This document shows, in pieces, positions 12,454 to 16,592 of a stretch of DNA of 39,770 bases. The stretch is taken from assembly GCA_002786495.1 (NCBI GenBank), contig PCSZ01000076.1, positions 28,047 through 67,816 on the forward strand, written 5' to 3'. Under the pieces are notes generated by a model that did not search any database, was not told the origin of the DNA, and worked only from the letters and a program-made list of their open reading frames with translations. The position numbers and the translations under genes are program-made. Within the stretch, counting starts at the first letter, position 1; every line of letters starts with the position of its first letter. The stretch comes from Candidatus Uhrbacteria bacterium CG22_combo_CG10-13_8_21_14_all_47_17. GTDB taxonomy: Bacteria; Patescibacteriota; Patescibacteriia; 2-12-FULL-60-25.

Positions 12454-13035
12454 TCAGAGCTCGAGCTCCACGAGATCCTGTCCACCGGGATGGCGAAGGT
12501 TGAACCAAGCGTAACCGGTTTTCTCGGTCATGTCGCCTCGGAAGCGCGCATTTGGCAAAGGACCAGGCCGCAAGTCTTTGACGAGACAAGCGAAATCCGC
12601 GTGCCCCAGATTGTCGCGGCAAATCTTGAGCGTCATGGAAACGAGCGAAGTCTGCGGCGCAAGCACCGATTCGTTCACAACGAACAGGGCTGACCACCTG
12701 GCCTCCGTCTCCATCTGGCGCAAATCCTCGATGGAGAGCAGGTCAACGGGAAGAATCGAGGTCCAGCCAACGGGCTCGATGAATGGTACCGTGAATGCCT
12801 CCGTAAAACCCTGATCGAGATCAGCCTCCCGTTCCTCGATGATATCCTGGACGATTTCCATGAGAGGATCCGTGAACCTCCGATCATAGATCATGTCGAT
12901 GAAATTTGACCAACGATTGAAGTTTCCGGCTGCTGCAATGTCAACACCGCGAAAGCATCTTTTCTCCAGTGCCTCACGACACCAACTTGGCAGTACGAGC
13001 TTCGCCGTTAAGGCTCCGAGCTGAAACGTACGCAT
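12454..13035 (-). CDS. hypothetical protein
   Basis: long ORF, start taken at MRTFQLGALTAK; strand supported by downstream minus-strand terminator. Confidence 0.6.
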   Translation of the reverse strand: MRTFQLGALTAKLVLPSWCREALEKRCFRGVDIAAAGNFNRWSNFIDMIYDRRFTDPLMEIVQDIIEEREADLDQGFTEAFTVPFIEPVGWTSILPVDLLSIEDLRQMETEARWSALFVVNESVLAPQTSLVSMTLKICRDNLGHADFACLVKDLRPGPLPNARFRGDMTEKTGYAWFNLRHPGGQDLVELEL

Positions 13036-13160
13036 GTCTTCTTTTCCTAACAAATACGAACGTTTCAACTCAACACTGTATTGCCGCCTTTGTCAACCGC
13101 CATGTCCATATTGACTTTTTTTCCAATACGATCAAACTATACCAAGCAAAGGAGTTCATA

Positions 13161-13499
13161 ATGGACGATTTTTTCGGAACCGTCTACCTACTATTGCACC
13201 TTCCTATCTTGTACAGCGCATTCATAGCCACTCACTGGGATGAATACGTGGAAGTCCGAGATGCGTATGTGAAAAAAGAAGAACAACGCCCCAAACATGA
13301 GATTTTGCTCAAGTGGGCCGTTATGACGCTCTTCCTGATCGCCTTCGATCTCCTGCTCGTCATACCATCGATCAAGGAGACACTCAGTCTGGACATGGCC
13401 TTAGCGGTAGCCCTACTTCTGCTCAAGTTCATCATCCTTTTTACTCATCTCAGGGCTGATCCTGAGCCTGAGTCTGAACCATTTCAAGACCAGCTTTGA
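13161..13499 (+). CDS. small hypothetical membrane protein
   Basis: RBS AAAGGAG upstream of ATG; hydrophobic segments; terminator immediately downstream. Confidence 0.7.
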   Translation: MDDFFGTVYLLLHLPILYSAFIATHWDEYVEVRDAYVKKEEQRPKHEILLKWAVMTLFLIAFDLLLVIPSIKETLSLDMALAVALLLLKFIILFTHLRADPEPESEPFQDQL

Positions 13500-13510
13500 A
13501 AAACGCCTTT

Positions 13511-13538
13511 CCCCCGACTCACCATCGGGGGCATTTTT
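13511..13538 (+). terminator. intrinsic terminator
   Basis: CCCCCGA-n7-TCGGGGG followed by CATTTTTT. Confidence 0.85.
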
Positions 13539-13565: not shown

Positions 13566-13595
13566 TTGACAAAAAAACCCAGCCCTTGCTATAAA
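13566..13595 (+). promoter_or_regulatory. sigma-70-type promoter of sRNA candidate A
   Basis: TTGACA - 18 nt - TATAAA. Confidence 0.7.
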
Positions 13596-13601
13596 GAAGA
13601 C

Positions 13602-13757
13602 GGCACAGCGCAGGGTTCGTCCTCGCGGAGACCCTTCACCCCCGAGTCTCCGTATCGGACCTCCTCCCTCCTTTCGCTGTGTCATCCTGCCCCTTCGGCA
13701 GCCAGCCGAGTCCAACGCCTATTGGATTTAACTCGCTGTCGGAGGGGCTCTTTTTTT
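13602..13757 (+). ncRNA. candidate tandem small RNA A (5' end estimated from promoter)
   Basis: Own promoter; GGCACAGCG/CGCTGTGTC closing helix, CGGAGAC/GTCTCCG hairpin with CACCCCC-containing loop; conserved 3' hairpin 13690-13747 followed by CTCTTTTTTT. Confidence 0.6.
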
Positions 13758-13789
13758 ACAGAAAAAAATAAAGCATTAAAATTTCCATC

Positions 13790-13816
13790 TTGACAAAAAC
13801 CGTAGATTTTTATACA
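13790..13816 (+). promoter_or_regulatory. sigma-70-type promoter of sRNA candidate B
   Basis: TTGACA - 15 nt - TATACA (spacer short). Confidence 0.5.
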
Positions 13817-13822
13817 AAAAGG

Positions 13823-14027
13823 TTGGCCATCAAAGAGGAAAGAGGAATAGGTACGACGAAGAACCACCCCCTCAGTTCTTTTGTCCGCCTGTCCTTTCGA
13901 CCTCGATCGTGTAGAAAGCTTCGTGTAGAAAGCATCGTGGAGCATTCAACGATCGGCCCCTACCCCTTCGGCAAACCGCCGAGTCCGGCGCCTTCTGGAT
14001 TCGATGGACTGCCGGAGGGGTTCTTTA
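13823..14027 (+). ncRNA. candidate tandem small RNA B (5' end estimated)
   Basis: GACGAAGAAC/GTTCTTTTGTC hairpin with loop CACCCCCTCA; CGATCGT/ACGATCG helix; conserved 3' hairpin 13963-14020 followed by TTCTTT. Confidence 0.55.
13907..13948 (+). repeat. three tandem 14-nt repeats inside sRNA candidate B
   Basis: TCGTGTAGAAAGCT / TCGTGTAGAAAGCA / TCGTGGAGCATTCA (third copy degenerate). Confidence 0.8.
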
Positions 14028-14056
14028 AATCCAAATACGTCAGTGAGGATTCCCCC

Positions 14057-14085
14057 TTGACAAAACCCGAAGTTCTCGCTAGAAA
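14057..14085 (+). promoter_or_regulatory. sigma-70-type promoter of sRNA candidate C
   Basis: TTGACA - 17 nt - TAGAAA. Confidence 0.6.
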
Positions 14086-14091
14086 TAGGGC

Positions 14092-14306
14092 AAGACAGAA
14101 GAAGTTCCCGCGATAGAGACGGTTATCAAGCCCCCATCGCCCGACACTTCGTCCCCCCCCCTGAACCAAGGAGGAGCTGGCTTTACAGCGGAGGCGTTTT
14201 CATCCTTTTCACGCCAAAGCAGTTTAGCGCGCTCCTCGCCTACCCCTTCGGCAGCTTGCCGGATCCAACGACTGTTGGGTTCGAGCGCTGTCGAAGGGGT
14301 TCTTTA
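14092..14306 (+). ncRNA. candidate tandem small RNA C (5' end estimated)
   Basis: GAGGAGC/GCTCCTC closing helix with nested GCTTT/AAAGC and GGCGT/ACGCC; C-rich tract; conserved 3' hairpin 14243-14299 followed by TTCTTT. Confidence 0.55.
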
Positions 14307-14324: not shown

Positions 14325-16463
14325 TTACTTTGTTCTTCCATGTCGTAATTTTCTTTCGACCTTCTTCCCCTCTTTCTCCGGCAAGGTGGATTTCCTTGAA
14401 CGTTTTCGCATTTCTTTTCCCAACTGCAAAACTTCATCGCGCAAAATTGCCGCCAGTTCGAACTCAAGATTTTTTGCGGCTTCTTTCATTTCTTTTTCTT
14501 TGCGCTTCCTCACAGTCTCTAAGCTATGTGTCTCCGCTTGCAATTCAAGTTTCAAAATTTCTTTTACATCTTTTTCTTTCACTTCAAGCCCGAGCATCGC
14601 ACGCAAATCATCTTGTGCCTTCAAAATCGTCTTCGGCGTAATATGGTGTTTTTTATTATAGGCCACCTGCTTTGTTCGACGACGATCGGTTTCCGCAATA
14701 GCGCGTTTCATGGAACCTGTCATATTGTCCGCATATAAAATAACTTGTCCGCGCACATTACGCGCTGCACGTCCGATGGTTTGGATGAGAGCCGTTTCCG
14801 AACGAAGAAAACCTTCTTTATCAGCGTCCATAATCGAAACAAGCGAAACCTCCGGAAGATCGAGACCTTCACGAAGCAAGTTCACGCCAACAATCACGTC
14901 ATATGTTCCTTTGCGAAACTCGGAAAGGATCTCAAGACGTTCAACCGTATCAATGCCGGAATGCAAATATTGAACTTTAAATTTCCGCTCTTTCATGAAA
15001 TCCGTGAGATCTTCCGCCATCTTTTTTGTGAGCGTTGTCACAAGAACGCGTTCTTTACGTTTAATCACGGGGGCGATGCGATGCGTAAGCAAATCTTCAA
15101 CTTGGCCGGGATAGCCTTTCCAGTCTGAATAGGTTTTTTCCTCCGTGTCCGACATGGTTTTCACCGGCGGCTTTTTTCCAACAGAAACCGGCAAGACGAC
15201 AACTTCGGGATCAACGAGACCGGTCGGACGAATAATCTGCTCTACAATATGTGCGGAATGCTCGAATTCATATTTCGACGGCGTCGCGGAAACAAACACA
15301 GCCTGACCAACGCGCTCGGTAAACTCGTTAAAAGTGAGCGGACGATTATCCGCAGCTGAGGGCAGTCTGAATCCATGTTCAACCAAGGAAGCTTTTCGCG
15401 CCTGATCTCCATGATACATACCACCGATTTGCGGAATAGTGACATGCGATTCATCAATAACCGTGAGAAAATCATCCGGAAAATAGGAAAGGAGCGTATC
15501 CGGCGGTTCCCCGCGATTTCTTCCGGACAGCGGCTGCGAATAGTTTTCAATTCCATTACAAAAACCAACCGCCTCAATCATTTCAATATCATACTTCGTT
15601 CTTCGTTCCAGGCGTTCCGCTTCCAAGAGTTTTCCTTCTTTCTCAAATTTCGCGAGCTGTCCTTTCAATTCCTCGCGGATCAACTTCACGGCGCGCTTCC
15701 GATTTTTTTCGTTTGTCACAAAGTGTTTCGCGGGGAAAATCCACAAATCTTTTTGTTCACGAAGAACTTTTCTTGTAATTGGATCAAGCCGTTCAATACG
15801 CGTAATGGCGCCACGCGGCGCTTCAATGCGATAAATAAACTCTTCATTCACCGGCATGATCTCGAGCACCTCGCCAAGCGCGCGAAATGTTCCACGCAAT
15901 AAATCCGCATTCGTTCGCGTGAAATGCAAATCAATAAGCCGCTGAAGCGTATCCGCTCGTTTCATGTCTTCACCTATTTCTATATGCAAAACCATGCGCT
16001 GATATTCTTCCGGTGCTCCAAGACCATAAATACAAGAAACGGACGCGCAAATAATGACATCTTTCCGCGTAAGTAAAGCCTGCGTTGCGCTGTGCCGTAA
16101 ACGATCAATCTCTTGATTGATCATCGCTTCCTTTTCTATATACGTATCCGTTCGCGCGATATAAGCCTCCGGTTGATAGTAGTCATAATACGAAACAAAA
16201 TATTCCACCGCATTGTCCGGAAAGAAATGTCGGAATTCATTACAGAGCTGTGCGGCGAGCGTTTTGTTATGCGCAATAACCAATGTCGGCTTTTGCACAT
16301 TCTGAATCACATTCGCGATTGTGAATGTTTTTCCTGTACCCGTCGCACCCAAAAGCGTCTGAAAACGATCCTTTTCTTCCAATCCCTCCGTCAATTGCAA
16401 AATCGCCTCCGGCTGATCACCGGAGGGTTGATATTTTGATTTTAAACTGAATTTATTGGACAT
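14325..16463 (-). CDS. uvrB: excinuclease ABC subunit B
   Basis: LLGATGTGKTFTIANVI, SYYDYYQPEAYI, ATPSKYE, VGVNLLREGLDLPEVSLV, QTIGRAARN; C-terminal UVR motif; start at MSNKFSLKS. Confidence 0.97.
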   Translation of the reverse strand: MSNKFSLKSKYQPSGDQPEAILQLTEGLEEKDRFQTLLGATGTGKTFTIANVIQNVQKPTLVIAHNKTLAAQLCNEFRHFFPDNAVEYFVSYYDYYQPEAYIARTDTYIEKEAMINQEIDRLRHSATQALLTRKDVIICASVSCIYGLGAPEEYQRMVLHIEIGEDMKRADTLQRLIDLHFTRTNADLLRGTFRALGEVLEIMPVNEEFIYRIEAPRGAITRIERLDPITRKVLREQKDLWIFPAKHFVTNEKNRKRAVKLIREELKGQLAKFEKEGKLLEAERLERRTKYDIEMIEAVGFCNGIENYSQPLSGRNRGEPPDTLLSYFPDDFLTVIDESHVTIPQIGGMYHGDQARKASLVEHGFRLPSAADNRPLTFNEFTERVGQAVFVSATPSKYEFEHSAHIVEQIIRPTGLVDPEVVVLPVSVGKKPPVKTMSDTEEKTYSDWKGYPGQVEDLLTHRIAPVIKRKERVLVTTLTKKMAEDLTDFMKERKFKVQYLHSGIDTVERLEILSEFRKGTYDVIVGVNLLREGLDLPEVSLVSIMDADKEGFLRSETALIQTIGRAARNVRGQVILYADNMTGSMKRAIAETDRRRTKQVAYNKKHHITPKTILKAQDDLRAMLGLEVKEKDVKEILKLELQAETHSLETVRKRKEKEMKEAAKNLEFELAAILRDEVLQLGKEMRKRSRKSTLPEKEGKKVERKLRHGRTK

Positions 16464-16592
16464 TTTAGCAAAATGAAAATCGGAGCCATCGAAGCGTATC
16501 ACGTTTTTTTCCCCAGTACGACCCTAAGTACTGAGCAAACAAAAATGCACTATAGGCTTGTTTTTTCCTCCATTTTCAGTATACTCCGCCAC

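Follow-up and report, generated by a model that had tools for sequence, protein, structure and literature searches.

Three consecutive units on the plus strand, lying between the gene for a 112-aa protein and uvrB at positions 13566–14306 of the 39,770-nt stretch of DNA analyzed here (hereafter the window), are well supported by their sequence as non-coding RNA genes, each with its own promoter and all with a common 3′ hairpin. Strong promoters, a paralogous hairpin, stable folds, and an absence of coding potential are all present, and the array very probably encodes three non-coding RNAs resembling a broad, known type of regulatory RNA. It uses a quarter of the best promoters of its genome and would be a concrete entry point to small RNAs (sRNAs) in an organism with no detected Hfq and few Shine–Dalgarno (SD) sequences; our literature search on Patescibacteria retrieved no work on base-pairing sRNAs.

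Promoters, predicted transcripts, and coding potential of the array

Near-consensus sigma-70 sites (TTGACA, 17–18 bp spacer, TAnAAA) occur four times in the 39.8-kb window versus 0.16 times expected from shuffled sequences. Three of these precede the consecutive units exactly where the original prediction had placed TTGACA-type promoters (13566, 13790, and 14057), and the fourth is located upstream of a tRNA-Asn gene. The entire 891-kb genome contains 12 promoters of such strength, i.e., 3 of the 12 fall within the array. As another of the 12 lies ahead of a tRNA pair, this strong promoter type serves stable RNAs as well in this organism. The promoter regions of the three units are partly alike. 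A genome scan for promoter-plus-terminator transcripts without genes retrieved units 2 and 3 plus a single further RNA and nothing else; its filter missed unit 1.

From promoters and 3′ hairpins we infer transcription and RNA ends, which yield predicted RNAs of about 156, 203, and 215 nt for units 1, 2, and 3, respectively (Table 1). These have a GC content of 61, 55, and 58% versus 46% for the genome, and their folds are far more stable than those of shuffled sequences (z = −8.5, −5.5, and −5.2). Hairpins with T-rich tails are found on the plus strand only. As originally claimed, the array holds no convincing ORF: two ORFs of 108 and 87 aa run across it, yet neither has a Pfam match and both cross promoters and hairpins, while no unit contains an SD-preceded mini-ORF of at least 8 codons.

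On the dnaG side, the array is flanked by two orphan proteins (12454–13068, minus strand; 13161–13499, plus strand), neither with a Pfam match above the cut-off. For the second of these, the 112-aa protein, no clear homologue was found in the 40 other genomes of the bacterial family. Synteny downstream of uvrB was not conserved in the relatives inspected; in one of them (G038), the last 700 bases downstream of uvrB (L042) hold a different repeat array, GGAGCGAGAGGAC...AGTCCTCTCGC, without an obvious ORF.

Table 1 Coordinates of the array, its flanking features, and leader hairpins behind the same promoter type (window positions unless a locus is named)
Feature	Position	Strand	Remarks
Upstream gene, 112-aa predicted membrane protein, orphan	13161..13499	+	Context, outside the array
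Intrinsic terminator of the 112-aa gene	13511..13538	+	7-bp stem, then CATTTTTTAA; separates the gene from unit 1
Unit 1 promoter	13566..13595	+	TTGACA-N18-TATAAA
Unit 1 unique 5′ domain	13602..13685	+	One closed irregular hairpin; start inferred from promoter
Unit 1 conserved 3′ hairpin and T-tract	13689..13757	+	Hairpin 13689-13748
Unit 2 promoter	13790..13818	+	TTGACA-N17-TACAAA
Unit 2 unique 5′ domain	13825..13958	+	Apical loop on a long stem
Unit 2 conserved 3′ hairpin and weak tail	13962..14027	+	Hairpin 13962-14021; tail TTCTTTA
Unit 3 promoter	14057..14085	+	TTGACA-N17-TAGAAA
Unit 3 unique 5′ domain	14092..14238	+	
Unit 3 conserved 3′ hairpin and weak tail	14242..14306	+	Hairpin 14242-14300; tail TTCTTTA
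uvrB	14325..16502	-	Convergent with the array; Pfam UvrB domains; ends 18 bp past unit 3
Promoter-driven 5′-leader hairpin	L195:744-870		
Promoter-driven 5′-leader hairpin	L195:1369-1480		
Promoter-driven 5′-leader hairpin	L196:995-1140		
Promoter-driven 5′-leader hairpin	L154:440-220	-	

A shared 3′ hairpin behind three 5′ domains

The 72-nt 3′ hairpins share 87% mean column identity across the three units, and their pairwise local alignment scores of 57–64, versus a shuffled maximum of 22–24, bear out a 3′ hairpin common to all three units; judging from these alignments, the hairpins are clearly paralogous. Each consists of a 12–14 bp helix P1, an internal loop, a 9-bp helix P2, and a 6-nt loop CGNCTN, with the 5′ strand of P1 (CCCCTTCGGCA) and the loop pattern kept beyond pairing needs. 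In the consensus structure of the three hairpins (RNAalifold), 11 of 25 pairs are invariant, 8 show one-sided changes, 3 have both partners exchanged, and 3 are broken in one unit. Pairing is retained in 95.9% of the alignment cells, a percentage equaled by 6 of 500 shuffles, and is destroyed when the pairing partners are slid along the alignment. The substitutions had been proposed as covariation reflecting selection on RNA structure: pairing is indeed mostly kept, but there are only three double changes among three sequences, and 19 of 500 shuffles reach the same covariation score. Covariation among the three paralogues is thus only suggestive, i.e., it supports a conserved hairpin but no strong covariation claim, and a larger alignment is not possible since no homologues were found in relatives.

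The T-tract likewise predicted for every 3′ element holds for unit 1, whose tail is a true T-tract (TCTTTTTTT), but not for units 2 and 3, whose tail, TTCTTTAAAT, is a weak one for an intrinsic terminator. Elsewhere in the genome, an array-type hairpin followed by TTCTTT appears to act as a terminator.

The 5′ domains are pairwise no more alike than shuffled sequences (p = 0.27, 0.53, and 0.96). They are structured when folded alone (z = −5.8 for unit 1, −4.2 for unit 2, and −2.4 for unit 3, the weakest), so that of the variable structured 5′ part initially described, the structure stands while the sequences are unrelated rather than variants; given these p values, they are better called three unrelated domains combined with a promoter and a 3′ scaffold that the units have in common. 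In unit 1, an apical CACCCCC (13637–13643) is accompanied by a CU-rich strand, CCTCCTCCCTCCTTTC (13660–13675), resembling the 3′ tail of the 16S rRNA, whose 3′ end in this genome is GGATCACCTCCTTTCTA: the unit contains CCTCCTTTC, identical to the 16S tail, and CCTCCTCCCTCCTTTC includes the last 16S bases. Unit 2 displays an apical loop, CACCCCCTCA, with CACCCCC at 13865–13871, and unit 3 has CCCCC at 14131–14135 and an unpaired run of nine C at 14153–14161. An unpaired CCCCC is found in the predicted folds of all three 5′ domains, but also in 5–38% of shuffles of these C-rich sequences.

Distribution of the hairpin and other RNAs behind strong promoters

Rfam 15 covariance models at gathering thresholds identified only two tRNAs in the window and none of its families on the array, where a permissive threshold added only chance microRNA and lncRNA matches (17–20 bits versus cut-offs of 55–68). 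The array thus matches no Rfam family even permissively, in line with the original prediction of an unrecognized one, and a tRNA-like or tmRNA identity of the units was supported by neither ARAGORN nor Rfam.

Covariance model R1, built from the three copies of the array hairpin and scoring 89–93 bits on them, detected nothing above 34 bits in the 40 other genomes of the family (the entire sample of the order), 381 genomes sampled from the class, and 380 sampled from the phylum. The weak matches inspected resembled ordinary terminators or chance, and in its own genome the hairpin was found only at the array. A DNA search of relatives with the entire 751-bp array retrieved only short chance matches; the exact P1 pattern yielded 21 unrelated matches across 85,000 GTDB genomes, mostly in actinobacteria; and the hairpin was found neither in viral contigs (P1 pattern) nor in phages and plasmids (distant BLAST). 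As a positive control, model R2, likewise built from three sequences, detects its RNA in 37 of 41 family genomes. The original prediction had staked the case for a family on homologues in relatives, and here it failed, with R1 at 34 bits or below everywhere outside the array. The array is therefore absent or unrecognizable in relatives, within a genome sample that represents its genus by this species only. By these searches the element seems confined to this species, and the array as a widespread novel RNA family is not supported.

The RNA used as control is itself a candidate new family. Another of the strong promoters of the genome, at C17:3277–3305, drives a predicted RNA of ~120 nt (C17:3028–3147; L106, minus strand) that folds into one long hairpin, bulged by 10 nt on its 5′ side, and is present as one copy in each of the 37 genomes detected with R2. 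Across the 37 aligned sequences, double changes are seen at 26 of 45 pairs, compared with 12.7 in shuffles, and no measure was equaled by any of 500 shuffles; the alignment is model-fitted, so that these counts lean towards structure, and they collapse when partners are slid. The hairpin also has two nearly invariant internal motifs, CCACGACAAGCATGG and TTTCTTGG. The RNA has no match at or above a family cut-off in Rfam, and by its alignment qualifies as a candidate RNA family absent from that database, for which a 6S-like role would be a guess. The genome-wide control thereby exposed a covarying RNA family outside Rfam in nearly every genome of this bacterial family.

Other predicted transcripts were noted in this genome and its relatives. 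In the array's own genome, a typA/bipA-like gene is preceded by a short transcript unit running from promoter to terminator (L123:259–420, contig C34), which includes an SD-preceded 8-codon ORF (MRKNKPIY) ahead of its terminator, and is possibly a leader or dual-function small RNA. Across the family, the strong promoter type often precedes very stable 5′-leader hairpins directly before the SD and start codon of predicted protein genes (Table 1); the loop of the leader at L154 contains AACCTCCTCC. In the relative G022 (contig C46, L192:1240–660, minus strand), two more tandem promoter-driven structured RNAs lack obvious ORFs, and the terminator-type hairpin loop of the second, TTTCCTCCTTTCC, contains the CCTCCTTTC of the 16S rRNA 3′ tail. 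This pair has the same design as the array and an unrelated sequence. Kinship between the array and the structured RNAs found behind this promoter type in relatives (L191–L193) was rejected: searched against the array's own genome, these matched only the unrelated C17 RNA significantly.

Candidate functions and comparison with known systems

An array of sRNA genes is the best reading of what is transcribed. In its full form, we give about an even chance to a tandem array of three Hfq-independent sRNA genes, in which a constant 3′ module for termination and stability is joined to individual C-rich 5′ domains that pair with mRNA. Specifically, each unit would be transcribed from its own strong housekeeping-type promoter; the constant 3′ hairpin would end transcription, protect the 3′ end, and perhaps bind a common protein; and the structured 5′ domain would expose C-rich loops that pair, without Hfq, with G-rich, SD-like sites at mRNA starts, giving every RNA its own target set via its individual 5′ domain. 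A more ambitious version, which strikes us as rather improbable, would see a lineage-specific modular sRNA system whose constant promoter and 3′ hairpin scaffold carries unrelated 5′ recognition domains, i.e., an expandable set of Hfq-independent riboregulators in a reduced-genome, probably patescibacterial organism with few SDs.

The proposed base-pairing function draws on the C-rich unpaired stretches and the match to the 16S tail, which by analogy suggest SD-directed pairing as in LhrC, RsaE, or cuckoo RNAs (PMC4132741, PMC10746234). Hfq was not found by a model search of the 95%-complete genome, the same model having matches in 5 of the 14 genomes used as controls. When each unit was co-folded with every start region of the called genes, the energies equaled those of antisense controls for all three units, and gene interiors were better pairing partners of the C-rich segments than start regions were. 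The scarcity of SDs in this genome leaves limited room for an anti-SD mechanism, and a global mechanism of this kind was rejected given the lack of enrichment at start regions over controls. Two isolated sites are candidate target leads by complementarity, and both are testable. Apart from the array itself, the genome holds a single full complement of the unit 2 loop ACCCCCTCAG, which lies some 10–25 nt ahead of where an HtrA-like protease gene starts. For unit 1, a perfect complement of 16 nt is found before a guanylate-kinase-like gene, and the SD of this gene (GAAAGGAG) matches the CU tract of the unit (CTCCTTTC) as well, with both sites in the right antiparallel order. As a target of unit 1, this gene is not favored energetically, ranking only 113th once hairpin opening is counted, and the site may overlap the promoter of the gene.

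The absence of enrichment would also be in keeping with stable RNAs whose action depends on a protein that binds the shared hairpin, as decoys or sponges akin to the CsrB/RsmX-type multicopy RNAs, with 5′ domains that matter little. That the hairpin alone is conserved between units whose 5′ domains are unrelated, and that the CCCCTTCGGCA strand and CGNCTN loop exceed pairing needs, would fit as well. We nevertheless consider this unlikely: no known protein-binding motif was recognized in the hairpin, its identity is equally explained by recent duplication or gene conversion, and the 5′ domains, each being folded, are probably not filler.

Quite improbable, in our view, is that the hairpins are serial terminators insulating convergent genes and the RNAs functionless by-products. 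The array does lie directly before the convergent uvrB, the similar hairpin with TTCTTT apparently terminates transcription elsewhere in the genome, and the element is not conserved in relatives; however, three near-consensus promoters and 84–147 nt of structured 5′ sequence are both superfluous for a terminator, the 112-aa gene already has a terminator of its own, and 3 of the 12 best promoters of the genome are hard to call noise. A DNA-level element with incidental RNA structure, i.e., cassettes split by a conserved palindrome or a small repetitive element, is very unlikely: like integron attC cassette arrays, the locus formally repeats a unique segment followed by a conserved imperfect palindrome three times, but visual inspection revealed no attC-type GTTRRRY/RYYYAAC ends, no integrase was noticed among the window ORFs, the would-be cassettes carry individual promoters and no ORFs, and the hairpin occurs at one place in the genome and in none of the viral contigs, phages, or plasmids searched. 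Least credible of all are units encoding very short peptides or leaders, for which the 8-codon ORF of the promoter–terminator unit upstream of the typA/bipA-like gene sets a precedent that no array unit follows, the long ORFs crossing promoters and hairpins and matching no family.

For the array of sRNA genes, established tandem paralogous arrays offer the closest comparison, and as in these, adjacent copies each have their own promoter and terminator, albeit with weak terminator tails in units 2 and 3. Streptococcal csRNAs are a set of small RNAs, each with its own promoter and terminator, for which anti-SD pairing has been proposed and which are united by CiaR-controlled promoters. The array promoters, in contrast, are plain TTGACA/TAnAAA sites of the sigma-70 consensus, and the array has no Rfam match. 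In Listeria monocytogenes, LhrC1-5 are multicopy sRNA genes, with lhrC1-4 in one locus and a terminator hairpin at the end, whose C/U-rich UCCC motifs in unpaired regions bind SD sequences (PMC4132741). In the array, UCCC is found in the CU tract of unit 1 and before the C9 run of unit 3, with an unpaired CACCCCC in unit 2 instead. The likeness to LhrC1-5 and csRNAs initially drawn thus extends to the layout but not to the 5′ domains, which are unrelated here, while LhrC copies are almost identical over 111–114 nt, i.e., their entire length (PMC4132741), against RNAs of 156–215 nt in the array with only the 3′ hairpin in common. LhrC also binds Hfq, whereas none was detected here.

The cuckoo, alpha-r14, and CcsR RNAs of alphaproteobacteria comprise several structured RNAs with an anti-SD motif, CCUCCUCCC (PMC10746234, PMC10253847). 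This motif occurs exactly once in the array, in unit 1 (13660–13668), where it is partly paired in the predicted fold, and is absent from units 2 and 3. Both CcsR and the array are RNA clusters adjoining a small-protein gene, yet CcsR RNAs arise by processing of a single transcript that also includes a DUF1127 gene. The array units, in contrast, have their own promoters, and their neighbor, the 112-aa protein, has its own terminator and no Pfam match, DUF1127 included, above the cut-off. No member of the LhrC or cuckoo family, the array is of the tandem-sRNA kind and differs from its known representatives by a common 3′ module combined with unrelated 5′ domains.
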